From contig OY979717.1 of assembly GCA_963855995.1 (NCBI GenBank), positions 47,644,044-47,708,043 of the forward strand: a stretch of 64,000 bases of DNA. The letters are read 5' to 3'. Below the pieces are notes generated by a model, which was not told the origin of the DNA, searched no databases, and saw only the letters and a list, made by a program, of their open reading frames with translations. Positions 20,664 to 58,031 of this stretch are shown here, piece by piece. The position numbers and the translations under genes were made by a program. Position 1 is the stretch's first letter. Every line of letters begins with the position of its first letter. This DNA is from Muricea muricata (lineage: Eukaryota; Cnidaria; Anthozoa; Malacalcyonacea; Plexauridae).

Positions 20664-22919
20664 TTATTTGCAGACAGTGATCGTAGACCGCGAGCGTTTA
20701 TCATTATATCGGTGAATGTCTAAGAGCCTTGCAGTAATCCATTCTTGAAACGTCCATCCTCCGGTAGTTACGAGGTAACGAGGTTTGAGTTACCAACGAT
20801 ATCACACCACGATCAACTACATGAGAAGGAGGGCTGTACACAACGCCTTGGTATTTCGCAATTATATACTCATGGACATTTTTGAACACATTTTCCTTTA
20901 GGTTGTTTTTTTTCCGATAGCGAACTAACCAGCCTGACACGTAATCACCCATATCCGTGGCAACGTAAACATGTGATAAACCCGTGGCAATCTTTAGAGC
21001 TGCCAAAACCTATAGTAGATGAGATAGACTTGTGGAAAAATTCATGACCAATAGTTTAATAGATATACAATTTACTACATTCACCTCTCTTATACAATCA
21101 CATGCAGTTTATCTCCTCGAACTAACCTTGCCAGTGTAGGAACTGCAGTCTAAAGTACACGAAAATCACAAGTTTTTTCAATTCGCTACCTGAAACGATA
21201 AAGTAAAATTTAACGTTTCATCGGAGAGTTTTTAATTATCCCACTATCAATTTCGAAACATCGAATTTTACTCCATTCTTCCAATTAGTGAACGAAACCG
21301 CCCTCTCTATTTACTTCCACGCTTTCAGCTTTTGTTTCTGTCTGATTAATGATAGTGTACAAAAAGCTGACGTTAGTACATAATTTTTCCAAATGATTGC
21401 CCAATAATTTTGCTAACTCTAGTCCCCCAATGATTTATGACTGCCGTACATAACAAGTTGTTGAAATTGCCAGCGTTTGTAGTTGTACAAGTGTTACAGG
21501 AAATGAGGTGTCAAGACTCAACGACAAAGTTTTTAAAAGAAACACTTTCACACTATACAGACTACTCAGAGCTGGAGGAACTATCAAACTTGTTATATTT
21601 CCAGACAAACCAGCATAAACCTATAGTTTCTGCACATAGACCATTAACTTCATGTTTTCAGTTTCAATGTTGTGAAAACGATTCGAAACGATTTCGCCAC
21701 AAATGGTCGCCACATGAGTACACAGCTTCAATCTTAGACGAAAGAAAGACGTATTTGGGCGAAAGATTAATTATGTAAAACATAAATTACAAATGAATAA
21801 AATAGACAAACACAAACCTCGAGCACTAAATCCACACATAGTCGCACGTGTTGCATTGAATATGACCGAAGTATTTTCTCACCCCGAATATGAACTGCAA
21901 TATACTTATTTTCTAGTGCTTCCTGGAAACGCGTGGCTTCGTTCAATACAGCCTGTCCTGGTCTCAACGCAAATGTAACCTGGATGGCAGAAAACTGATA
22001 ATTCTCTTCACCAAACGATAGTCTTCGCCACCTTTCCCCCTCCAGACGAATATATTAAGACAATTTTCGTCTTTAACGATATCTTTTTCCAGCACTTTCC
22101 AATCAGTTATTATATCGCTGTTTACGCAAAACTGTTTTCCCGAAGTTCGTTTCATAGCTTTGTCAAGAAACTCGCATTTTGTCCAGCCATTTTTGGTGGT
22201 ATTTTTAATGATTGCCTTATAAAAACCTTCCTTCAAGCGAAGTTTGCTTTGGTAAAATCCTTAGACTGTTGCGAGTTATTAATGAAATGTATGCTTACGT
22301 GATTAGGACTTTTACGTGGACATTCCTTCTCGTATTCTTGATGGTCGATAAGGGACGCATAACCAGCAGCCGCTAACAAACGCCTCAAATATTTTACATC
22401 GTAATATGTTTCCAATGGCGACCAAGAATGAAAGGAACCAAATCTTGTTTGCTTGACAAAAGGTATAACCACTTTCCGTCCGCTTTTTCCAGCTTGCGCG
22501 CAAAGGCTGAGAAAAGCACGAGTGTTTTTTGATAACTGTTCTGTGTACTGGTTATGCACAAAAATATACTTTCTCGATGGGATTATTTTCTTGGGTTTCC
22601 AAGTATCGATCACATGAGGAAAAACCAAAGCGGTGTATTCTAAAGTAACTCGTTCTTTTTGAGTTTCATTCTCAAGAGAAATGCGTATTTGTAGATTTTG
22701 ACCGTTAGCATCTTTTATTTTTGCAAGTAATTCTTTAAAATCAAGTCCTTCGAACTCACTATAATATATTTTCTCTCGATTTTTATCGGCTTTTCTTTCT
22801 GTCGGACCTCTCAACGAAATACTTTCCAGTATATTTAGTACGTGTCAGTTTATCAGAAACCAGACAGCTATTATAATAGGAGCCTCGATGCGGAAAAAAC
22901 TCCGAAGGCTAAAACGCAT
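20664..22919 (-). pseudogene. O-fucosyltransferase-like gene, decayed copy A
   Basis: Same two coding exons as the gene at 33.3-35.7 kb: 22,919-21,818 and 21,009-about 20,664, with matching acceptors and donor. It opens MRFSLRSFF with a hydrophobic anchor (APIIIAVWFLIN). A TGA replaces codon 25, and frameshifts occur near 22,236 and 21,965. In the last exon about 14 bp are missing after GVISLV, which shifts the end out of frame. The GDP-fucose O-fucosyltransferase signatures remain: FVHNQYTEQLSKNTRAFLSL, YIAVHIRGEKILR and HVYVATD. With four independent lesions this is a pseudogene. Its intron also matches copy B, so the locus was duplicated as genomic DNA and not by retroposition. Confidence 0.85.
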
Positions 22920-33688: not shown

Positions 33689-35725
33689 CTATAGTACGGA
33701 TGTAGAGAGAGTTAGGAACTGTATAGTTTCAAATTATAAACAAATCGACATTAGATTCGTCTCTTTTATACAATGAGTACTCTTAAATACCTCGAGGTAA
33801 CATTGGCCGTGTACGTAGTACACGAAAAGTATAAGTACTTTCATTACCTGAAAGTTGAAACGATAAAGTAAAATTCGGCGCTTCGTCTGAAAGTTTGTAA
33901 AGTTCGAATTTTAGTCCATCATTTCAGTTAGAGAAAGAACTGGCCAACTTTTTGTAACTATTATCCAGTCTCCGACTGCATTATTTACTAGCCTGCCACA
34001 TGGTCAGATTTGTTTCTATCCAGTTGATAAGAAAAATATAAAACCCAACAAAAACTGACATTGCCATTTTTATGTGACCCCTTTAAGATTATTTTTATGT
34101 AACCCCTTAAATATTAACCCCTGAGATTATTTTTACATAACCGTTAAGAATCGCGCTATGTTTACCAATGTTGAAAACCAGCGTTCGTAGTATAGAAAAG
34201 CAAAACGGAGTCAATGGCGTAGCCAACTTGATAATTGGACGGGGGGGGGGGCATATTCATATATTCGTGTTCCCAGTGTGACTTCAGTGCAGTTCGTGAA
34301 TGACGTCAAAAACTCAACAACAAAGTCTTCAAAACAAGACGCATCCAAGCTTTACTGGGCATTTGGAAGACGAATCATGAGACTTGCCATATTTCAAAGA
34401 AAACCAACATAAACAGCGTCTCTGGACAAAAACAAAATACTTCATGCATGTTTTCAGCGTAAAAAGCTTAGAAACGACGTCGCTATTAGCTAAAAACGAG
34501 TGCTATCTGTGTACATGCAGAGTTTGACTCTTAGTTGGGCAAAAATTATTTTTTACGTAAAACATTAAAATGAATACAATACATAAACACAAACCTCGAG
34601 CACCAAATCCACACATTTCTGCATGTATTGCAAAGACGATGTCCGAAGTATTTTCTCGCCTCGAATATGAACTGCAATATACTTATTACTTAGTGCTTCC
34701 TGGAAACGCTTGGCTTCGTTTAATACAGCCTGTCCCGGCCTCATTGCAAATGCAATTTGGATCGAAGAAAACTGATAATTCTTTTCACGAAACCTCGCGC
34801 GATAGTTTAAGCCATCCGTCCCCCTCCACAAGAATATATTAAGACATTTTTCGTTTTTAACGATATCTTCTTCCAGTACTTTCCAATCTCTTATTATATC
34901 GCCATTTACGCAAAACTGTTTTCCTGAAGTTCGTTTCATAGCTTTGTCAAGAAACTCACATTTTGTCCAGCCATTTTTGGTAGTGTTTATAAAGATTGCT
35001 TTATAGAAATCTTCCTTCAAGCGAAAGTTTGCTTTGGTGAAGCCCATAGAATGTTGTGACTTGTCAATGAAATGTATGCTTACGTGATTAGGACTGTCAC
35101 GTGGACATTCCTTCTCATATTCCACATCGTCGACAAGGGACGCATAACCAGCAGCAGCCAACAAACGCTTCAAATATTTTACATTGTAATAAGTTTCGAA
35201 TGGTAACCAAGATTTAGTGGAACCAAGTTTCGTTTCCTTGACAAAAGGTATAACCACTTTCCGTCCGCTTTTTCCAGCTTGCGCGCAAAGGCTGAGAAAG
35301 GCACGAGTGTTTTTCGATAACTGGTCTGTGTACTGGTTATGCACGAAAATATACCTTTTCGATGGGATTTGTTTCTGGGGTTTCGAAATATCGATTATTT
35401 GGGGAAAAACCAAATCGGTGTATTTTAAAGTAACCCGTTCTTTTGAGTCTTTCTTGTTACGAGAAATACGCACTTGTAGATTTTGACCGTTAGAATCTTT
35501 TATTTTTTTAAGTAATTCTGTAAAATCAAGTCCTTCGAACTCGCTATGATATATTTTCTCCCGACTTTTATCCGCTTTCCATTCTGTCGAACTTCTTGAT
35601 GAAGTGCGAACGAAATCTTCCTTCAGTAAACTTTCCAGTTTATTTACGTGCCTGTTTATCAGATACCAGCCAGTGAGTATAATAAGAGCGTTGATAAGGA
35701 ACACAACCCGAAGGCTGAAACGCAT
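33329..35725 (-). CDS. O-fucosyltransferase-like type II membrane protein, copy B
   Basis: Two coding exons, 35,725-34,595 and 33,688-33,329, join in phase 0 (CTCGAG/GTTTTG; donor GTTTGT, acceptor CTATAG) to 496 codons plus stop. An acceptor (TTTTACAG) 3 bp before the ATG implies an untranslated 5' exon. Residues about 7-24 are a hydrophobic anchor, then a basic stem, as in Golgi/ER glycosyltransferases. GDP-fucose O-fucosyltransferase features are FVHNQYTDQLSKNTRAFLSL, YIAVHIRGEKILR (the conserved HxR that binds the nucleotide sugar), HVYVATDMSDYGS and the C-terminal GRGTFQEWI region. The family moves fucose from GDP-fucose to Ser/Thr of proteins in the secretory pathway. The acceptor protein is unknown, and I cannot assign it to POFUT1 or POFUT2. 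No lesion seen; copy A at 20.7-22.9 kb is dead. Confidence 0.85.
34595..35725 (-). CDS. O-fucosyltransferase copy B, first coding exon
   Basis: 377 codons starting MRFSLRVVFLINALIILTGW. It carries the membrane anchor and the N-terminal half through CVDLVLE. The start at 35,725 is preferred over an upstream codon because that codon lies in the pyrimidine-rich intron end. Confidence 0.85.
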
Positions 35726-35744
35726 CTCCTGTAAAATTAGAAAA

Positions 35745-38700
35745 ATAGTCAAAAAACAGATATCATTTTGCCGTTGCCTGTTCAGTTATAGATACACAGT
35801 ATGACATCATAAAATGGTTATGCCAAAATGGTTTAATACTAAGTGTATTAACACTTGGGATCCAAAGATAGTGCAAAGTTTCAGTGGTTATAGTTCTGTA
35901 GAAGAGACTAACAGCATGCATGCACGCAAAGCATATAAACCTAAATTTCAAACGACTTCGCGCGATATTACATGTAAACAAACACTTCACTCAGGGCTAG
36001 TCGGAATGGGAGACTTTCCGAGATGCCGCCAGTAATGTAAATTATGTTCAGTGTTTATATGGTCCCGCTTCACTCCCGCCTAGGCGAGATCACGGCATCA
36101 GTTGCCGGGTCTCGTCTAAATGGGACGAAAAATTCCCATATAAACACTCAATCCCGGCTAGGCGGGATGAATTTTGACATCTGATCACGCACAATTACAC
36201 TGTATGTCAAAAACATAACGTCAAGCACTTAAATGGCTTCATACCGGCACTATTTCCTTCGTCATCGCGCCTGGGCGATTTTCCTGTCTAAACCTAGATA
36301 TATAAAAACAGCCCGTCCCGGCTAGACGGGATCATATGAACAGGTCCTCAGGCTATTTTTGGCCCGGTCGGCGCCGTCGCGTAATCTTGAAAACAATTTA
36401 CTATGTCGAATAATAAAGGATTATTGACCGAGCGTGAGGTCTCTACCGTGAAATATCAGACTGAAGTTTTTTAGTACGGAACCCGCCTGAGGCTCGTGTA
36501 TTTCCAGCTTTCCGAAAATCTTGCAGCATCCCGCGAGGATGGACCACGCTTTACATAATAACTACAGTAAAACACGCAATCTGATTGGTCAGTATCCGTG
36601 CAGCATGAGGCAATCCTGCACGTGAACTTTGAAAGTTGACATCGCTTCGTATTTTCGAGATTGTTTTACGGGTTTTAAATTGCCAGCAAAAACTCGCCAC
36701 AACTCGCGTGCATGGATGACCCTATCCTGCACGGAAAACTATTCGGTATCCCTTTATTGAAGTAATTTTATACAAACATGCAGTTTTGAATCATATACAA
36801 ACAATCGCAGCAGCTGGGAAATTTGTCTGAGCATGCGCCAGATAAGCCTGCGTGAACGCGTGGAAATTGCGTGATTTACGCGTGATATTTAAAAATCATA
36901 TAACAGACATGGTCACAAGCACTTTCAGTGGACTAAACGACCTTTTGGCGTAATTTTTAAGAGCACGCTAACAAATCAGGTGAGTAGATATAAACATGAA
37001 AGCCAAGTTCGAGCTAAATTCATGTTGAAGCAAAAGGCTGATTTTGTAAAATTCGACTCAAACTAGTCAACACTCGTACTCGAACAACAATACAAAAATG
37101 TCACTGGAATCGATCGACTAAACGCACTTAGTCAATTGAAAAATATCTTTACCATTTGTACGAAAACATTTATACAGTATCAAAGACATCATTGCACTGA
37201 CGGCCCACGTGATTGTGGATGTTTTATCACTTTCACGACCATTTCAACAACAACCGTAATTTAAAGTACTTTTCCAGTAGCGGGTTTCACAACAAACTAT
37301 TGGCCATGAGTGGAATTTATAAAACAAAAAAATTGGTTTCGAAAGGAACATAGACATACTGGAAGTAACAGGAAACAAATATCTTTTTGAAGCAAAAGCT
37401 AAATTTTTCAGTATTAAGTCAAACGTAAATTCAACTTCGCGCTTAATTCTTGGCAACCCACTCAAATGTCAAAGTTTGGAAATTTGCTTCAACAGACGAT
37501 GTCATCACTTCAAAATATGATTAACTGACAGCTATATCAGTCCTTTACTGAAATCAATGAAAAATTGTGAACAAAATTATAACTGGCTCGTCAAAGAAAC
37601 TAAATTCCGAGCACCTCTGAAACCAATCTGTATTTCGCAAATAATATGCAAATTACATTTTGTGTTCAGCCGCCAACAATATTTTTGCACAGCGGTGGCA
37701 AATTTCCCAGCTGCTAACAATCGCTCAATACCGAAGTAAAGGGGGTATAAATACGGTGAAGATTTCGATATGTAGCGCATTTTTTTGCAGGAAGCTTTGA
37801 GAAAATGTAGACAAAGCTACCACGATTCATTTGGTGTCACAGGTTTAATACTGGCATGGTCATGAATATTACTGTATGTTTTTATACGACGTAGCATAGC
37901 GAAATTATTGTGAATATATTATGTTTCTCTGTGTTTATGCTATATAGTTGATATTCTATGTTTGGTTTAGTGAGGCGAACACGAGGCAAATACCACCAGC
38001 CCAAAAACTAGTATGATATTTTGTATTTCTCAGTCGCATACGCGACGCAAAATTCCTGTCCCAAGATTCAATTTCATTGACAACTTAATGTTTTAAATTA
38101 TATTACTAGTTAAGAAAAACAGTCGAACAGCTTCCGTCTCAAGGAGTTTGTAGCCAAAAGCAAATAGGACACAAAATTAGGATGAGTAGCAGCATGCGAT
38201 GCTGAAACTTTCTCGGGTTTTTTTACAACCTTTTAGAAGAATTTGCCCGTGATTTTTTAAAGACGCGCTCAATTATTTATAATTCTTAGGGCTTAGTTGT
38301 TACAAGTAAACAAATGAAACTGAAAACCTACTGGCAACAGTTATAATCATAACCACAAGTTACTATTACAAGGAAATTTCTGCCGAACGATCTAGCATGC
38401 CATTTAATTTACAATATACCAATAAGCATCATCTTGCACACTGTCTCTATGAATTTATTTTGTCCCAAAAAATTGAATTTTCAAGGTGCCATAATTACTA
38501 CATATACTATAGAGTACAGTTTGAATGAGATTTGTCCAATCTCATGATGTTATTGTTAGTGCTAATGTTCAAACTTCTATTAAATGTCAATTGAAATCAT
38601 ACTTTAGTCTAGACTTCATGACGTCATTAAAATATGTTTTGTAACGTTTGTTGTATTTCTTTGTTGAAATTTTTCTTATTGGTGATAGTATATGGAACGG

Positions 38701-47480: not shown

Positions 47481-48290
47481 ATGACTACAGCCAAGCTGCG
47501 GAAGGAAAATCAACAATTAAAACTCGACATTGCAGAATTGCAAAAGAAATTGGAGAAGGTCACTAATGAAATTTCGCAAAGAAGTGACATGATCGATCAA
47601 AATGGTCTACACGCTCGAAAGCCTTCTTTGTCACCTGGAAAAGAAAAGGGTGTGGAGTACATTTCTGACCAATATGACGAGCTCGTATCCTTTAAGAATA
47701 ATACTTTGAAGGTTCTTAAAGACATGAAGTCTCAGTTGGGAAATATAGAATCGAAATGTGATAAAATCAGCAACGCTGTCGATCAAATGGAAGAGTACAG
47801 CTATCAGTTTAACATAAAGATAGTCGGAATGCCACAACATAATGTCTCAGAATCGGCCAAGGTTACGTCAAAATTATGTCTGGATTTATTTAAAGCCATT
47901 GGAGTTGAGGATGTATCGCTACAAGATATAGATATTGCCCACCGCATTCCAGCAAGACGACAAACTGATCGTCCAAGTGCAATTATCTGTAAATTTGTTC
48001 GGCGCCTTGCTAAACAAAAAGTAATGGCCGCACGATCGAGAGTTCGTAACGTGCAGGCTAGCCAATTTGGTTTTTCCCACGATATGGATGTTGGGCATCT
48101 TAATATCTATGATCACCTTACCCCACGATTGCAACAGCTCTTGTTTGAAGCAAAGAAGTTTCAAGTAACCAACCAGTTTAAGTTTTGTTGGGTTAAGAAG
48201 AATATGGTATGTCTTCGTAAATCTGAAGGGGACAGCGTTATTAGAGTTAACAATTTGCTAGATCTTTTATCGCTTCAACGAACAGTATGA
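47481..48290 (+). CDS. LINE ORF1 protein
   Basis: 269 codons, intact. The N-terminus is a charged coiled coil (KLRKENQQLKLDIAELQKKL). The middle has a second helical repeat, and the C-terminal half is the RRM-like nucleic-acid-binding fold seen in LINE ORF1 proteins (NIKIVGMPQ, DIAHRIPAR, AIICKFVRRLAKQKVMAA). Such proteins coat the LINE RNA and aid target-primed reverse transcription. The intact frame contrasts with the damaged ORF2 that follows. Start chosen at the first ATG of the frame; nothing upstream is coding. Confidence 0.8.
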   Translation: MTTAKLRKENQQLKLDIAELQKKLEKVTNEISQRSDMIDQNGLHARKPSLSPGKEKGVEYISDQYDELVSFKNNTLKVLKDMKSQLGNIESKCDKISNAVDQMEEYSYQFNIKIVGMPQHNVSESAKVTSKLCLDLFKAIGVEDVSLQDIDIAHRIPARRQTDRPSAIICKFVRRLAKQKVMAARSRVRNVQASQFGFSHDMDVGHLNIYDHLTPRLQQLLFEAKKFQVTNQFKFCWVKKNMVCLRKSEGDSVIRVNNLLDLLSLQRTV

Positions 48291-49915: not shown

Positions 49916-49921
49916 AATATT
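49916..49921 (+). repeat. Target-site duplication of the giant palindrome, left
   Basis: AATATT, identical to 56,507-56,512. It is itself palindromic. Confidence 0.85.
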
Positions 49922-50424
49922 AGTAGATTACCCCCCCCCCCCATCCAGCGGAAATTTCCCGCCAAATGACGTCAGCAGTTATTTTTCCGCGAAATGTCAT
50001 AAGGGTACTGTTGAATGACGTCACCGCGCGTGGTCAGCACGTGAACAGTTTATTATTGTCATGGCGCATGAACAACACGTGGACAACACACGCACATGGG
50101 ATTGATGTTGTGATCAGCACGTGAACAGTACAAATTTGGTCTCGAGGGTGATCCCAGGCACGGCATGTGTATCAGAAAAGAGAGAAATGCAGTATAGGTT
50201 TAAAAAGTATTTATTTCAACTTTTAAGTTTTACAAACTAGTGATTATATTTCAATTGATATAAACATATGAGATAATCTATGAGATTTTTAAAAGTAAAA
50301 GTTTTTTCGATACTAGTGGATAGAATATGTAAAGTTAAGTATGATAGTTTAAAAGTTTGTTCAAAAATGTTCCGACATTTTGTTGGTGGTTCTTCGTACT
50401 TGAGGATTTTAAATGCTTCCACGA

Positions 50425-50646
50425 TTAGGATCCAGATATGTTCTTTCCCGATATGCGATTTTGCTTCTTCGCAACAGTTCCACCAACTACATAATTCCCC
50501 CGTGACAGCGTGTTTTCGTTCAATTTCTTTAATTTTTTTTTTGCGATCAATTCTACAGTGATCGCAGCAGTCAGTTCCTTTGGAGTAAATTGTTCTTCGA
50601 GGTTAAAAATGTTATCAGAATACATCTGCTTAAAGAAATGTGCCAT
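50425..50646 (-). CDS. Small unknown protein, left arm
   Basis: ATG at 50,646 gives a 73-codon frame starting MAHFFKQMYSDNIFNLEEQF with a Lys-rich middle (TAAITVELIAKKKLKKLNE). A second frame directly downstream (50,422-50,237, EEPPTKCRNIFEQTFKLSYL) may belong to the same gene through an intron or a frameshift, because a decayed duplicate nearby has related pieces of both. No family recognised. Confidence 0.4.
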   Translation of the reverse strand: MAHFFKQMYSDNIFNLEEQFTPKELTAAITVELIAKKKLKKLNENTLSRGNYVVGGTVAKKQNRISGKNISGS

Positions 50647-51089
50647 TGTAGCTAGTGTCCGTACGGCTTGGAGAGCAAGTGTATTATGATAGAGTATCTT
50701 GCAATACATGTATGGGGTCAGTAAAGCGTTGCGCGTAGGAGTGAAAGTTAGGTATTTTTAGAGCGTATGTTCGCTATGCTGCTGTTTAGACATTGTCTTG
50801 CAGGGTGCCGGATATTGTAAGAGCGAACGTACGCTATTGTACAAGCGCAGTAGGTACACTATGCTAATGCTTAGATGCCTTGCTCAATGATGTTGCTAAT
50901 TTCTTACTATTTACATTGGCAAAAATTAACACACAGATTAACGATTGGAAAATTTATTTCTTAAAAGTATAAAATATACAGTATAATACAAATTGAGCAT
51001 AGCGCATGTAAATGAAGAATTAAATGCAATATAGGTTTAAAAAATATATATTTCTTTGGAGCATTACAAGAAGCTACATAGAGGGAATT

Positions 51090-51310
51090 AGTGTTTATAT
51101 TTTAGTTTATAAATACATAAAAAGATAATCGATTACATGTTTAAAAGTGTTCGTTTTTTCGATATTCGAGGAAAGCGTATGTGGGCTTAGAGTATGTAGT
51201 ACAATCCGTTGTATTTTTCTTTCAATCAACTCAACAGTTATCGCTGCTGTCAATTCGTCTCGTGTAAACTGTTCGAAATGTCATCAGAATATATCTGCTT
51301 ACAAAGATGT
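51090..51310 (-). pseudogene. Decayed duplicate of the small ORF, left arm
   Basis: Minus-strand MAHLCKQIYSDDI, then in another frame FEQFTRDELTAAITVELIER and SNIEKTNTFKHVIDYLFMYL. The last matches the follow-on frame of the 50.2-50.6 kb ORF. The duplicate has lost the middle part and frame. Confidence 0.6.
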
Positions 51311-51664
51311 GCCATTTCAGATAGATAGTTTAAGCAAGAGCTGTTTAGTCCGTACGGCTTGGGGAGCAAGTGTATTGTGATAGAGTATATTGCAATACAT
51401 GTATTGAGTCAATAGTGTGAAGTATTTTTAGAGCGAACGTTTGGCTTGCAAGTGTGTTTAGGTGTTGTTCTACAGGTGCTTGACATTGGAAGAGCATACG
51501 TACGGCTTGCAAATGTGTTCAGATATTGTTGAAGCGCAGTAGGTACGCTGTGCTGATATGTTTTGGCAACCCATATGAAATCATTCAACCATACCGTGTG
51601 TTGATTTTAGTATGTTCAACAATATCTAACATTAGGTTAACAAATGACTTCCCTAACGGTTTCT

Positions 51665-51960
51665 ACAATCTTTCCGAAGGACGCCGGGACTTCATTGCGG
51701 GACTCTTTTTAGGTGTCCCGCTTCAAGGGGCTCTCTCATGGGACACGCGGGACACTCTACGGGACTCCTTTTGAGCGTCCCGATGCGCTTTAGATGCACT
51801 GGAAATTCTGGAAGGCGTTGCTAAAGCATTTACTTTTATAATTACGGGACGTCGGGACTTTATTGCGGGACTCTTTATAGGTGTCTCGCTCAACGGGACT
51901 CTTTTAAGGGACTCCTGGACTCTCTTACGGAACACTTTTTAGGCGTCCCGATGTCCCGTT
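51665..51960. repeat. GGGAC-type repeat units downstream of the zinc-finger gene, left arm
   Basis: Two units (about 51,680-51,785 and 51,845-51,960) each run GGGACTT..ATTGCGGGACTCTTT..AGGTGTC..GGGACTC and end GCGTCCCGATG. Confidence 0.75.
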
Positions 51961-52114
51961 TTAAGCAATCGATTACCTGAATTTAATGCGACACTTTTTT
52001 AGCGTCCATTACTAAGGGACTGGTGCAGGGGGTATTAATTAAACTCAAGCATTGATCAAACCATTTATCTGTTTCAATTGTTTTATTTGAACATATGTAC
52101 TATTAACGATAATG

Positions 52115-52891
52115 TCAATGTAATTCATTTCTCGATTCATAAGATATGCAAGCGTTGTCTTGATCATCATCCTCTTCGTCAGGGAAGTGCTGTCTGTCTT
52201 CTAACATACGTTCCAAGAGAAATTTTCTCCTCCTAACAGCTGCGGCCAGGGCTTCGTCGGGATCAAACTCATCTTCGTCAACGAATGCATCTTTGGTTTT
52301 CATTATTTTTCTATGCACAGGATCTCTTTTCATTTCAGACATCCATTGCAGGCGAACTAAGTAGATATTTCCCAACTCCTTTCGAAGTTCTGGTAAAATT
52401 TCTGAAAAGGCTTGCTTCTTTGCGTCAATTTCACTAAATCCATTATTTTCAAAACTTTGTACAAGTTCATTGTGCTTTGTACGAAGTTCCGCTGCAGCTT
52501 CGTGTATTAGTACTCCCCAGGGATCGGCCTCCTCGTCTGAGTCGTTCATCTCTTCGGGACTTTCGCCTTCGTTTGATGAACTGAAAATATCTCCATTGGA
52601 TTCTGTTGACGTTTCGTCGTCGGATTCACTTCGCATCCTTTTAGGGCTCGACACTTCTTCTTCAGACTCTTCATCATGTGATACTGTTAACATACCGTCA
52701 TTCCAGTCATCCCGCATTCTTTTTCGACTCGACATGTCTTCTGACAGATTTTGATCACCAAGTGGCTTGACCTTAGAGAGATAATATCGTCTCGTTTCCC
52801 CTGAGAGTTGATGAATATCTGATAGATGGTTCGATAACTTTACGAGATTCCTTTTTCCGCAAATGGGACAATCTTTACGCCTTCGCGGCAT
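52115..52891 (-). CDS. C2H2-type zinc-finger acidic protein, left-arm copy
   Basis: 258 codons, intact. A basic start (MPRRRKD) leads into one zinc finger, CX2CX10HX4H, at residues 8-27 (CPICGKRNLVKLSNHLSDIH). Residues about 50-125 are Ser/Glu/Asp-rich with two SSRKRMR/SSPKRMR basic clusters that could be nuclear signals. Residues about 130-215 are helical (AAAELRTKHNELVQSFENN, LRKELGNIYLVRLQWM) and the tail is acidic. It is transcribed outward, away from the loop; an AATAAA lies just beyond the stop (52,082-52,087, minus). A nuclear DNA-binding role is inference from the finger. It could be a regulator or accessory protein of the element. No enzyme motif is visible. Confidence 0.75.
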   Translation of the reverse strand: MPRRRKDCPICGKRNLVKLSNHLSDIHQLSGETRRYYLSKVKPLGDQNLSEDMSSRKRMRDDWNDGMLTVSHDEESEEEVSSPKRMRSESDDETSTESNGDIFSSSNEGESPEEMNDSDEEADPWGVLIHEAAAELRTKHNELVQSFENNGFSEIDAKKQAFSEILPELRKELGNIYLVRLQWMSEMKRDPVHRKIMKTKDAFVDEDEFDPDEALAAAVRRRKFLLERMLEDRQHFPDEEDDDQDNACISYESRNELH

Positions 52892-52934
52892 GCTACTACT
52901 AACTGCGTTTGAGGACTAGTCGTACCTTCTTAAA

Positions 52935-53035
52935 AAGTGTCTCGTAAGAGAGTCCCGGAGTCCCTTAAAAGAGTCCCGATGAGCGGGACACCTATAAAGA
53001 GTCCCGCAATAAAGTCCCGACGTCCCGTAAGAGTA
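52935..53035. repeat. GGGAC-type repeat unit upstream of the zinc-finger gene, left arm
   Basis: Same unit in the opposite orientation (AAAGAGTCCCGCAATAAAGT, CCCGACGTCCCG), starting about 45 bp before the ATG at 52,891. Confidence 0.75.
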
Positions 53036-53051
53036 ATTAGAGAGTTTACGA

Positions 53052-53370
53052 TTCACAATGCGACTTGCTCAACAACGCAATGTGAATTCCTAGCCTTAAA
53101 GAAAGCGCTTAGCATTTTGATATAATAATATTTCAATGCTACTTCAAATAATCTTAAGCACTGCAACGTTTGACCCTTAGAAATGCGATTGTTGCTGAAT
53201 TGTGGAGTTTAAATAAACGGCTCTGAAAATCACAATTGGCTTCCACGTTGCTCTAAGGACGCGATAATCCTTAGTTTAATGTCGAGTTGAGAACGACAAC
53301 GCCGTTGAGAATTCCTCTCGAACAAATTTGCTTGTTTTGGAACTGCGTCGTCGATCCGCCTCGTCGCAGC
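53052..53370. promoter_or_regulatory. Single-copy loop between the palindrome arms
   Basis: 319 bp not repeated in the arms, between the start regions of two divergent identical genes. It includes AT-rich stretches (GATATAATAATATTT near 53,118) and inverted words near its edges. A bidirectional promoter is inference from position. Confidence 0.45.
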
Positions 53371-53386
53371 TCGTAAACTCTCTAAT

Positions 53387-53487
53387 TACTCTTACGGGAC
53401 GTTGGGACTTTATTGCGGGACTCTTTATAGGTGTCCCGCTCATCGGGACTCTTTTAAGGGACTCCGGGACTCTCTTACGAGACACTT
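53387..53487. repeat. GGGAC-type repeat unit upstream of the zinc-finger gene, right arm
   Basis: Mirror of 52,935-53,035, ending about 45 bp before the ATG at 53,531. Confidence 0.75.
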
Positions 53488-53530
53488 TTTAAGAAGGTAC
53501 GACTAGTCCTCAAACGCAGTTAGTAGTAGC

Positions 53531-54307
53531 ATGCCGCGAAGGCGTAAAGATTGTCCCATTTGCGGAAAAAGGAATCTCGTAAAGTTATCGAACCATCTAT
53601 CAGATATTCATCAACTCTCAGGGGAAACGAGACGATATTATCTCTCTAAGGTCAAGCCACTTGGTGATCAAAATCTGTCAGAAGACATGTCGAGTCGAAA
53701 AAGAATGCGGGATGACTGGAATGACGGTATGTTAACAGTATCACATGATGAAGAGTCTGAAGAAGAAGTGTCGAGCCCTAAAAGGATGCGAAGTGAATCC
53801 GACGACGAAACGTCAACAGAATCCAATGGAGATATTTTCAGTTCATCAAACGAAGGCGAAAGTCCCGAAGAGATGAACGACTCAGACGAGGAGGCCGATC
53901 CCTGGGGAGTACTAATACACGAAGCTGCAGCGGAACTTCGTACAAAGCACAATGAACTTGTACAAAGTTTTGAAAATAATGGATTTAGTGAAATTGACGC
54001 AAAGAAGCAAGCCTTTTCAGAAATTTTACCAGAACTTCGAAAGGAGTTGGGAAATATCTACTTAGTTCGCCTGCAATGGATGTCTGAAATGAAAAGAGAT
54101 CCTGTGCATAGAAAAATAATGAAAACCAAAGATGCATTCGTTGACGAAGATGAGTTTGATCCCGACGAAGCCCTGGCCGCAGCTGTTAGGAGGAGAAAAT
54201 TTCTCTTGGAACGTATGTTAGAAGACAGACAGCACTTCCCTGACGAAGAGGATGATGATCAAGACAACGCTTGCATATCTTATGAATCGAGAAATGAATT
54301 ACATTGA
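53531..54307 (+). CDS. C2H2-type zinc-finger acidic protein, right-arm copy
   Basis: Identical in amino acids to the left-arm copy, transcribed to the right. Stop at 54,305-54,307; AATAAA at 54,335-54,340. The two ATGs face away from each other 639 bp apart across the loop, so a shared central promoter region is likely. Keeping both copies open and identical, while neighbouring mobile genes are broken, argues for recent insertion or for arm-to-arm correction. Confidence 0.75.
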   Translation: MPRRRKDCPICGKRNLVKLSNHLSDIHQLSGETRRYYLSKVKPLGDQNLSEDMSSRKRMRDDWNDGMLTVSHDEESEEEVSSPKRMRSESDDETSTESNGDIFSSSNEGESPEEMNDSDEEADPWGVLIHEAAAELRTKHNELVQSFENNGFSEIDAKKQAFSEILPELRKELGNIYLVRLQWMSEMKRDPVHRKIMKTKDAFVDEDEFDPDEALAAAVRRRKFLLERMLEDRQHFPDEEDDDQDNACISYESRNELH

Positions 54308-54461
54308 CATTATCGTTAATAGTACATATGTTCAAATAAAACAATTGAAACAGATAAATGGTTTGATCAATGCTTGAGTTTAATTAATACCCCCTGCACC
54401 AGTCCCTTAGTAATGGACGCTAAAAAAGTGTCGCATTAAATTCAGGTAATCGATTGCTTAA

Positions 54462-54757
54462 AACGGGACATCGGGACGCCTAAAAAGTGTTCCGTAAGAG
54501 AGTCCAGGAGTCCCTTAAAAGAGTCCCGTTGAGCGAGACACCTATAAAGAGTCCCGCAATAAAGTCCCGACGTCCCGTAATTATAAAAGTAAATGCTTTA
54601 GCAACGCCTTCCAGAATTTCCAGTGCATCTAAAGCGCATCGGGACGCTCAAAAGGAGTCCCGTAGAGTGTCCCGCGTGTCCCATGAGAGAGCCCCTTGAA
54701 GCGGGACACCTAAAAAGAGTCCCGCAATGAAGTCCCGGCGTCCTTCGGAAAGATTGT
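54462..54757. repeat. GGGAC-type repeat units downstream of the zinc-finger gene, right arm
   Basis: Mirror of 51,665-51,960. Confidence 0.75.
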
Positions 54758-55111
54758 AGAAACCGTTAGGGAAGTCATTTGTTAACCTAATGTTAGATAT
54801 TGTTGAACATACTAAAATCAACACACGGTATGGTTGAATGATTTCATATGGGTTGCCAAAACATATCAGCACAGCGTACCTACTGCGCTTCAACAATATC
54901 TGAACACATTTGCAAGCCGTACGTATGCTCTTCCAATGTCAAGCACCTGTAGAACAACACCTAAACACACTTGCAAGCCAAACGTTCGCTCTAAAAATAC
55001 TTCACACTATTGACTCAATACATGTATTGCAATATACTCTATCACAATACACTTGCTCCCCAAGCCGTACGGACTAAACAGCTCTTGCTTAAACTATCTA
55101 TCTGAAATGGC

Positions 55112-55332
55112 ACATCTTTGTAAGCAGATATATTCTGATGACATTTCGAACAGTTTACACGAGACGAATTGACAGCAGCGATAACTGTTGAGTTGATTGA
55201 AAGAAAAATACAACGGATTGTACTACATACTCTAAGCCCACATACGCTTTCCTCGAATATCGAAAAAACGAACACTTTTAAACATGTAATCGATTATCTT
55301 TTTATGTATTTATAAACTAAAATATAAACACT
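55112..55332 (+). pseudogene. Decayed duplicate of the small ORF, right arm
   Basis: Mirror image of 51,090-51,310. Confidence 0.6.
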
Positions 55333-55775
55333 AATTCCCTCTATGTAGCTTCTTGTAATGCTCCAAAGAAATATATATTTTTTAAACCTATATTGCATTT
55401 AATTCTTCATTTACATGCGCTATGCTCAATTTGTATTATACTGTATATTTTATACTTTTAAGAAATAAATTTTCCAATCGTTAATCTGTGTGTTAATTTT
55501 TGCCAATGTAAATAGTAAGAAATTAGCAACATCATTGAGCAAGGCATCTAAGCATTAGCATAGTGTACCTACTGCGCTTGTACAATAGCGTACGTTCGCT
55601 CTTACAATATCCGGCACCCTGCAAGACAATGTCTAAACAGCAGCATAGCAAACGTACGCTCTAAAAATACCTAACTTTCACTCCTACGCGCAACGCTTTA
55701 CTGACCCCATACATGTATTGCAAGATACTCTATCATAATACACTTGCTCTCCAAGCCGTACGGACACTAGCTACA

Positions 55776-55997
55776 ATGGCACATTTCTTTAAGCAGATGT
55801 ATTCTGATAACATTTTTAACCTCGAAGAACAATTTACTCCAAAGGAACTGACTGCTGCGATCACTGTAGAATTGATCGCAAAAAAAAAATTAAAGAAATT
55901 GAACGAAAACACGCTGTCACGGGGGAATTATGTAGTTGGTGGAACTGTTGCGAAGAAGCAAAATCGCATATCGGGAAAGAACATATCTGGATCCTAA
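55776..55997 (+). CDS. Small unknown protein, right arm
   Basis: Mirror image of the left-arm frame, identical sequence. The follow-on frame is at 56,000-56,185 and an AATAAA at 56,207-56,212. Confidence 0.4.
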   Translation: MAHFFKQMYSDNIFNLEEQFTPKELTAAITVELIAKKKLKKLNENTLSRGNYVVGGTVAKKQNRISGKNISGS

Positions 55998-56506
55998 TCG
56001 TGGAAGCATTTAAAATCCTCAAGTACGAAGAACCACCAACAAAATGTCGGAACATTTTTGAACAAACTTTTAAACTATCATACTTAACTTTACATATTCT
56101 ATCCACTAGTATCGAAAAAACTTTTACTTTTAAAAATCTCATAGATTATCTCATATGTTTATATCAATTGAAATATAATCACTAGTTTGTAAAACTTAAA
56201 AGTTGAAATAAATACTTTTTAAACCTATACTGCATTTCTCTCTTTTCTGATACACATGCCGTGCTTGGGATCACCCTCGAGACCAAATTTGTACTGTTCA
56301 CGTGCTGATCACAACATCAATCCCATGTGCGTGTGTTGTCCACGTGTTGTTCATGCGCCATGACAATAATAAACTGTTCACGTGCTGACCACGCGCGGTG
56401 ACGTCATTCAACAGTACCCTTATGACATTTCGCGGCAAAATAACTGCTGACGTCATTTGGCGGGAAATTTCCGCTGGATGGGGGGGGGGGGGGGGGGTAA
56501 TCTACT

Positions 56507-56512
56507 AATATT
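56507..56512 (+). repeat. Target-site duplication of the giant palindrome, right
   Basis: AATATT, identical to 49,916-49,921. Confidence 0.85.
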
Positions 56513-58031
56513 TTTAAGACCAATCACTTTTTCTGAACTGTATAAAATCTGTATGTCTTTCAAAGTTGGAAAGGCACCTGGTGTTGATGGCATTCCTATG
56601 CAGCTTATTAGGGTTCTTTTCAATTTATCTCTGAACCATTAATGCGTATAATCAACCTTTCTCTTGAAAGTGGCATTTTCCCTGACAGATTAAAAACGGC
56701 TAAGGTTGTTCAATTTTATCAAACTTTTCGAAGATTTTTGAAAGGGTAATGTATAATCGACTAATTGAATTTATTGAACGGTTTGAAATGTTGTATTGTT
56801 ATCAATTTGGTTTTCGTAAAAATAATTCAACTAATTTTGCTTTAATTCATTTGACTAACAAGATAGCAACTGCTATTGATCAAAATAAAATTACAGCCGG
56901 TGTTTTGGTAGATCTGTCTAAAGCATTTGACACATCAAATCATCAAATTTTGTTTTCTAAGCTTGAACGTTATGGCATTCGTGGTGTGGCGTTACAGTGG
57001 ATTAAAAGCTACTTTGAAATTCGTGAACAATTTGTACAGTATGATGTTACCTCTTCTAAACAAATTATTCAATGTGGCGTTCCCCAAGGTTCTATATTAG
57101 GACCACTCTTTTTCATTCTATATATCAATGACCTCCCGAATGCTTTGCGATTAGCGGAACCATTACTATTTGCAGACGATACAAGTACTTACTACTCGCA
57201 CTCTGATCCACTTATGTTAGCTACTGTTTTAAATCAAGAATTGAGTAGTATTAGCCTGTGGATGAAGGCGAACAAAGTGTCGGTTAATACTATAAGAAAA
57301 CGAATTATGTTATCTTTAAACCTAAACAAAAGAAATTAAAAACTATTTCATTGATACCGCTTGTGTTTGATGGAAATCAGCTTATGCAAAAACGGGTGGT
57401 CAAGTTCCTTGGTGTTTTTATAGATGAAAATCTTTCTTGGAAATTTCACATTAACTATATCTGTAAAAAAGTCTCCAAATCCACTGGCGTAATCTATAGA
57501 TCACGTTTTTTATTGTCTATGAAAACTAAATTATCCATATATTATACCTTGATTTACCCATATTTGACCTACTGCAACGTTGTTTGGTCTTCCACCTATG
57601 TTACAAATGTGAAAAGATTATTCTTAATTCAAAAACGACTTGTTAGAGCTTTGACAAATGCTAACTCTACAGCGCATACTGCACCACTATTTTATCGACT
57701 GAATTTGCTCGATATTTATAAAATTAACTTCTTACACATTGTTAAATTCATGTATTGCTATCATCATAATTTACTTCCGTCTTCCTGTCATAATCTTTTC
57801 ATTACTAGTCGTTATATACACTCTTACAATACAAGAAATGCAAATGCATATCGATTAGCTACATACATGTCAAACAAATATAAAACGGTTTACTATTTTG
57901 TTTCAAGGACCAAAAAAATGGAATTCCCTTCCGGACAAGATGAAAAATTCAGAGACTTTAAATTGTTTCAGGAAGAGAATGCTAAAATATCTGATACAGC
58001 CATGATTTGCATTATAAAACTTGTAATATGA
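56513..58031 (+). pseudogene. LINE ORF2, reverse transcriptase and C-terminus
   Basis: RT blocks in order: [74 protein letters not shown] and the catalytic LLFADDTSTYY. The C-terminus (KFLGVFIDENLSWKFHI, YPYLTYCNVVW) continues in a second frame to 58,031. Breaks near 56,640-56,745 and 57,330. The FADD core is intact. Confidence 0.85.

Follow-up and report, generated by a model that had tools for sequence, protein, structure and literature searches.

Polintons, also named Mavericks, are reportedly self-synthesising transposons, as set out by Kapitonov and Jurka in 2006 and by Pritham and colleagues in 2007; to our knowledge, their replication has been inferred from the polymerase and has not been seen. 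For protein-primed replicons of the adenovirus type the hairpin or panhandle of the displaced strand is established, and both adenovirus defective genomes with long inverted end duplications and copy-back defective interfering genomes are known. Vertebrate Mavericks display 6-bp target duplications, terminal inverted repeats (TIRs) of 46-1,447 bp and, as the commonest ends, (AGT)2//(ACT)2, according to one survey (PMC8097293), and another source gives TA ends and usually 6-bp duplications for IS3EU (PMC10045372). For the terminal-protein-primed invertron plasmid pAL2-1 of Podospora, snap-back and panhandle intermediates are proposed (PMC1864894). The element considered here, W, occupies positions 49922-56506 (6,585 bp) of a 64,000-nucleotide stretch of the anthozoan Muricea muricata (contig OY979717.1, 47,644,044 to 47,708,043; hereafter the window). 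Judged from its sequence, W is a non-autonomous, palindrome-form derivative of a Polinton, since it shares a Polinton TIR and no core gene was found in it. The ends themselves are of known Polinton type and the palindromic form is what appears new: no report of palindromic Polintons was found in the literature searched, with Repbase and subscription journals outside that search, and PMC6431247 yielded nothing about palindromes. The preliminary description of the locus had named the same derivative as one option and an undescribed group as another; the latter is unneeded for the ends.

W consists nearly entirely of one palindrome, comprising a left arm (49931-53051, plus strand) and a right arm (53371-56491, minus strand), each of 3,121 bp by repeat search, separated by a spacer of 319 nt. 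The 6.6-kb near-pure palindrome with 3.1-kb arms and a 319-bp loop first described therefore stands, with the correction that the arms are not identical, differing by five substitutions and by the length of a C/G run (12 versus 18). The ends read AGTAGATTA(C)n ... (G)nTAATCTACT, with the C run beginning 9 bp inside the tip and comprising 12 C on the left and 18 G on the right, so that the AG...CT termini and the inset homopolymer noted earlier are read directly in the sequence. The same holds for the perfect 6-bp target duplication, AATATT, at 49916-49921 and 56507-56512. When W is excised and one AATATT copy dropped, a reverse-transcriptase frame runs continuously across the site, which indicates that W landed in a long interspersed nuclear element (LINE). 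An upstream open reading frame (ORF) of this LINE, at 47481-48290, matches Baculo_FP_2nd (PF25298), and on the 56749-58031 side the segment 56749-57339 matches RVT_1. Each arm carries an outward-pointing zinc-finger gene of 258 codons, listed among the ORFs at 52115-52891 (minus) and 53531-54307 (plus); both ORFs are intact and the two proteins identical, as the first description had it.

The relationship to Polintons emerges from the genome of the window itself, 453 Mb in 74 contigs. The terminal 379 bp of W gave at least 49 matches (40 of 276 candidates scored), many of them paired in inverted orientation at distances of 4 to 17 kb; 20 stretches, and later 20 more, were fetched around terminal-repeat matches, and the designations L009 to L048 refer to stretches of this genome fetched around matches. 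Such inverted pairs terminate longer elements, including (i) L016+L017, 15.8 kb tip to tip, aligned to positions 16-379 of the query, in which DNA_pol_B_2 (PF03175) is matched by two ORFs (E 2.1e-24 and 4.4e-13) and a third ORF combines an rve match (PF00665, 1.1e-10) with one to a chromodomain (PF00385, 7.6e-12); and (ii) L011+L012, 17.4 kb, with ORFs homologous to the L017 integrase and to other L017 ORFs. A search for longer relatives with the ends of W, which had been proposed as a check, thus retrieved copies with core genes. For the remaining long-copy ORFs, neither a capsid nor a protease family was matched in Pfam, and the AAA matches were weak; labels of "capsid", "protease" and "ATPase" for these ORFs presumably apply, following the usual Polinton gene content, and are unconfirmed by Pfam. 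L011+L012 also holds a putative LINE insertion, read by eye, with a 704-aa ORF.

By alignment, the outer module of the left arm (49922-50875, plus) is a Polinton TIR, bearing the tip AGTAGATTA, the C run at 49931-49942 and, on visual reading, the motifs TGACGTCA and CACGTG. This outer ~0.95 kb aligns with the long-copy TIRs to arm position ~954, with ~96.5% identity to the L011 TIR, which was also compared in 100-base steps, and is mirrored in the right arm (55547-56506, minus; G run 56480-56497). Inside the terminal repeat lies a second gene, ORF2 (ORF list: 50425-50709, minus, 94 aa; right copy 55713-55997, plus), which is common to the palindromes and the long copies, including the core-gene-bearing L016/L017. 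Its position within the TIR places the gene at both element ends; ORF2 has 42 homologues and comprises 94 aa in W versus 156 aa in L027, L036 and L037. The tips AGTAGA...TCTACT agree with (AGT)2 over AGTAG and differ at the sixth base, while the L016, L021 and L034 tips are AGTAGT; the TA ends of IS3EU speak against an assignment of W to that group. The Maverick/Polinton end chemistry, at first invoked by analogy, is accordingly borne out by a TIR that W has in common with pPolB- and integrase-bearing copies.

The only ORF of W longer than 94 aa is the zinc-finger gene, and none of the core genes (those for pPolB, integrase, ATPase, protease and capsid) was seen in its ORF list (Pfam was applied to the zinc-finger protein and ORF2), in keeping with the earlier statement that genes of autonomous families are lacking. 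The core proteins of L016/L017, searched by tblastn at E <= 1e-8 in L009-L037 (W and L038-L048 lay outside this search), found no match in eleven stretches, namely L009, L010, L020, L021, L022, L029, L032, L033, L035, L036 and L037; in L034 and L014 the zinc-finger query alone matched. Core genes are thus absent in the palindromic copies tested, and the matches fell in L011, L012, L013, L016, L017, L023 (39%, partial) and L024. A miniature inverted-repeat transposable element (MITE), short and non-coding, is ruled out as a description of W by its 6.6-kb size and two intact genes; the judgement that W is too structured for a MITE was sound. Elsewhere in the genome, the DNA_pol_B_2 profile gave at least 178 matches (82 of 505 candidates scored), several with open frames of ~1,300 aa; eight of the listed places share the same open-frame length, 1,301 aa, and these equal frames suggest that a further Polinton family was active recently.

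W is one of many such palindromes. Fourteen were read (W, L009, L010, L020, L021, L022, L029, L032, L033, L034, L037, L046, L047 and L048), a tally that undercounts those carrying the L033-type gene; in L033, L037, L046 and L048 the ends lie out of view or were missed by the motif scan. All ten palindromes with both ends located display perfect 6-bp duplications of differing sequence: AATATT in W, GAGGAG in L009, GTGGCT in L010, CACATT in L020, AATGTT in L021, GTCAAA in L022, GTGGTA in L029, AACCAG in L032, GACGCC in L034 and CTTAGC in L047. In nine non-palindromic relatives both ends are visible; the duplications are perfect in seven of these (L011/12, L013, L018, L019, L027, L028 and L030), and in L014/15 and L016/17 they agree at five of six positions. 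L027 and L028 have common flanks and may represent one duplicated insertion. With the zinc-finger protein as query, at least 165 matches were obtained (147 of 996 candidates scored); merging same-strand matches within 1 kb reduces the listed 150 to 140 genes. Of the 21 pairs of neighbouring genes that lie no more than 6 kb apart among these listed matches, 20 run in opposite directions, 19 of them divergently and one convergently. Only part of these 20 were read as DNA; they include pairs of unequal identity and one with a gap of 4.2 kb.

The palindromes fall into distinct types. Nine of them (W, L009, L010, L020, L021, L022, L037, L047 and L048) share the same central MITE-like repeat and probably descend, on that account, from one palindrome. 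In L029 (10,089 bp, arms ~5 kb, 7 substitutions in ~4,986 bp compared piecewise) the genes point inward and the spacer, of ~106 bp, lacks the MITE-like repeat. L034 (5,448 bp, arms 99.5% alike) holds two genes per arm, of 329/334 and 127 aa, and its tips gave no match to the W tip at E <= 1e-10 and matched ~50 bp of L018, L019 and L032; the gene of L032 and L033 encodes a different zinc finger with a related C-terminal half. From the gene direction and spacer of L029, the tips and gene content of L034 and the zinc finger of L032 and L033, we infer that palindromes formed at least three times. A single-copy progenitor of the W palindrome was sought; the relatives retrieved were L030 (single gene, 4,995 bp, duplication TATGCA) and L031 (one arm, cut within the loop), neither of which was shown to be the progenitor. 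The relatives L018, L019, L027, L028 and L030 each hold one gene bounded by ends of Polinton type; the first four combine a different kind of zinc finger with a related C-terminal half, as if the N-terminal domain had been swapped.

The zinc-finger protein has 189 homologues at E <= 1e-3. Pfam at E <= 1 returned no family for it and none for ORF2; comparison with PHROGs gave a weak match alone (E 0.013), and no relatives in viral contigs were confirmed. A C-x2-C...H-x4-H pattern was read by eye at the N-terminus, and the predicted model (mean pLDDT 60.7) has a helical C-terminal half. Foldseek searches with this model against PDB and BFVD gave nothing at E <= 0.001, and the fold is accordingly not used to assign a function. 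Every one of the nine W-type copies read retains both ORFs intact, with lengths of 258-260 aa in six copies and 258 aa in L037, L047 and L048. Across the 21 pairwise comparisons of seven copies, which are not independent, none of the 16 coding indels breaks the frame, whereas in noncoding DNA 101 of the 130 indels have lengths not divisible by 3; indels spare the frame in coding DNA, and the reading frame is therefore kept. Purifying selection on the zinc-finger sequence itself is weak or unproven. Strong purifying selection was considered and rejected, since the contrast in substitutions came from L048 alone: with eight copies (28 pairs) the coding DNA shows 366 substitutions in 21,720 positions and 19 indels, and the noncoding DNA 1,911 in 35,529 and 212 indels, most of these noncoding substitutions being supplied by the seven L048 pairs, where the downstream DNA differs.

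Comparison of the arms, covering their first 3.0-3.3 kb, discloses 4 substitutions within W, 4 in L009, 14 in L010 and 1 each in L020, L021 and L022, against 17-166 between elements (15 comparisons of the same six copies). The arms are therefore copied from each other, as long terminal repeats (LTRs) are. Between W and L009, 11 differences are common to both arms, with 5 and 5 arm-specific sites; L047 arms show 5 substitutions in 3,285 positions and L048 arms 2 in 3,701. The TIRs of decayed long copies differ more (L016/L017, 19/1000; L011/L012, 34/931). Terminal repeats also seem to have been exchanged between palindromes and other Polintons, as the sequence likeness of L010 to L013 and of L032 to L018 suggests: the outer ~700 bp of one L010 arm follows L013, which carries pPolB pieces, and the right TIR of L032 is 99.6% identical to that of L018. 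The match between the L010 left tip and the L013 right tip includes a 38-bp insertion, L013 being a deleted Polinton. In L021 the first ~120 bp, AGTAG excepted, are unlike those of relatives on both arms alike, and the tip looks symmetrically replaced.

With moderate confidence, W is read as a satellite Polinton/Maverick in palindrome form, mobilised in trans, born by fold-back copying and homogenised through a hairpin or panhandle. On this reading the TIR would have grown to occupy the whole element; the Polinton ends, required in cis if the element is to integrate with a 6-bp duplication and, by analogy, to start replicating, are retained. With no core protein of Polintons found in W, its movement would depend on the proteins of other Polintons. 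Palindromes would have arisen more than once, most simply through fold-back (snap-back) strand copying at short inverted repeats flanking the zinc-finger gene. Inverted repeats of ~100 bp do lie on both sides of that gene: a ~107-bp repeat found by repeat search, in two direct copies at 51679-51785 and 51847-51953 (51679-51953, plus), has an inverted copy at 52931-53030 (95%) across the gene. Once formed, palindromes would spread as palindromes; in each round the displaced single strand would fold into a full-length hairpin or panhandle, both arms would be rewritten from one template, and a new insertion would start with identical arms. The broader proposal, that palindromic Polinton satellites are recurrent hyperparasites multiplying as self-templating hairpins, with both arms of a new insertion derived from one strand, is put forward more tentatively and with somewhat less than even confidence.

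Several observations weigh against this satellite reading. Intermediates of transposition or of replication were not seen, and the replication route would follow by analogy. Among the copies read, a complete helper of exactly the TIR family of W is lacking: the pPolB of L016 is split into several frames, and L011 and L013 hold only parts. In L045 the arms are 100% identical over 2,567 bp (to the stretch edge) with one intact gene at the centre, which indicates that twin genes are not obligatory. Homogenisation is incomplete in some copies: all 14 arm differences of L010 lie in the outer 1 kb; L032 and L037 are near-identical over the inner ~1.1-1.7 kb and strongly different in the outer arms; and L046, with outer ~570-bp stretches at 79%, probably belongs here too. 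Substitution rates are near equal in coding (282/16,290, 1.73%) and noncoding DNA (530/26,809, 1.98%; 21 pairs without L048), and dN/dS of single pairs ranges from 0.16 to 1.38.

Part of this evidence suits the strongest rival, in which arm identity could stem from ordinary gene conversion acting between the arms once the element has inserted, as it does in large chromosomal palindromes, with no part for replication. We regard it as rather unlikely yet the most serious contender: the arms are near-identical in most W-type copies, identity in L032 and L037 peaks near the centre and falls outward, and the coding and noncoding rates over seven copies agree with it. What it accommodates less well are the ORFs, intact in the nine W-type copies and free of frame-breaking coding indels, as intact ORFs and frame-sparing indels make the changes shared by both arms look filtered, that is, fixed while the element still replicated; the TIRs of decayed long copies have, moreover, diverged, though they lie far apart within the element. 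Less probable still is a head-to-head dimer formed by end joining of two element copies in place of fold-back copying, to which the asymmetric palindrome centres with joined repeat pieces would lend themselves, whereas the inverted ~100-bp repeats beside the gene favour fold-back priming and two independent copies would give unequal arms at birth. An assembly artefact, a read folded back across both strands, belongs to a known class that produces long perfect palindromes and is nevertheless very improbable for W, whose unequal arms (5 sites and the homopolymer) speak against a single folded read, the more so with 14 separate palindromes, of which the 10 with located ends each have their own duplication. 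A foldback-type or P/Galileo-like cut-and-paste transposon unrelated to Polintons, groups in which long inverted repeats are typical, is equally far-fetched in view of the 6-bp duplications and of ends and a ~0.95-kb TIR common to elements with pPolB and rve integrase.

The remaining modules of W comprise an inner TIR-like module and the loop. The inner module (50995-51530, plus; 54892-55427, minus, by mirror coordinates computed from the arms) is a degenerate second copy of the TIR/ORF2 region, sharing ~68% identity with the outer module and ~77% with the TIR found in L018/L019, the single-gene elements. The loop is a MITE-like repeat of ~343 bp (53040-53382, plus), GAGAGTTTACGA ... TCGTAAACTCTC between TA, with 12-bp inverted ends adjoining the TA and a duplication that may be TA or 3 bp. 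A genome search with the loop, also proposed as a check, gave at least 44 matches (40 of 111 candidates scored) and revealed a separate repeat: at seven loci fetched outside the listed zinc-finger matches it stands alone, with flanks diverging at its ends, by which a captured host gene or a remnant of the parent Polinton is ruled out. L010 and L020 retain a short unpaired spacer beside it, and the centre of W is without 290 bp that L009 has. At C6:11648521, 11650794 and 11653064 the loop repeat recurs in the same orientation, a ~2.27-kb spacing that suggests a tandem array containing it. Elsewhere in the window, two similar ORFs at 22233-22814 and 34565-35752 (minus), sharing for example ...LLAAAGYASL...YEKECPR..., are, by their sequence, probably duplicated host genes.

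All-terminal-repeat elements with co-rewritten arms offer a testable pattern for Polinton replication and a possible insertion clock. If the hyperparasite proposal is true, (i) palindromic satellites would parallel the defective virus genomes of fold-back type, in a form that is integrated and bears genes; (ii) arm divergence would date insertions, as LTR divergence does; and (iii) the family would show directly, from the sequence of a eukaryote genome, that Polintons replicate by way of a hairpin or panhandle. The palindromes further suggest that the Polinton lineage repeatedly threw off gene-bearing palindromic satellites, in parallel with the defective genomes of protein-primed viruses. For the protein whose frame is kept, helper recruitment, interference and packaging are candidate roles.

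W thus resembles Polintons/Mavericks in its 6-bp duplications, AGT-type ends and TIRs, of which ~0.95 kb is shared with the pPolB/integrase copies, and differs from them in the core genes not found in it (pPolB, integrase, ATPase, protease and capsid) and in its twin zinc-finger genes. Compared with the vertebrate Mavericks of the survey (TIRs 46-1,447 bp; PMC8097293), the palindrome arms reach ~5 kb and occupy nearly the whole element. Like MITEs and foldback elements, W is non-autonomous and bounded by inverted repeats, but it is set apart by its size, intact genes and Polinton ends, its MITE-like part being the loop. With pAL2-1 it shares an association with long inverted repeats and, if the proposed route holds, the snap-back/panhandle intermediates; the plasmid, by contrast, is mitochondrial, and its inverted repeats are the mitochondrial DNA flanking the inserted plasmid (PMC1864894). 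The likeness extends to adenovirus defective and copy-back genomes in the all-terminal-repeat palindrome, in the retention of origin-bearing ends and in helper dependence, which for W would follow from its lack of core genes; in contrast to those genomes, W is chromosomal, flanked by target duplications, inherited and gene-bearing, with its reading frames kept.

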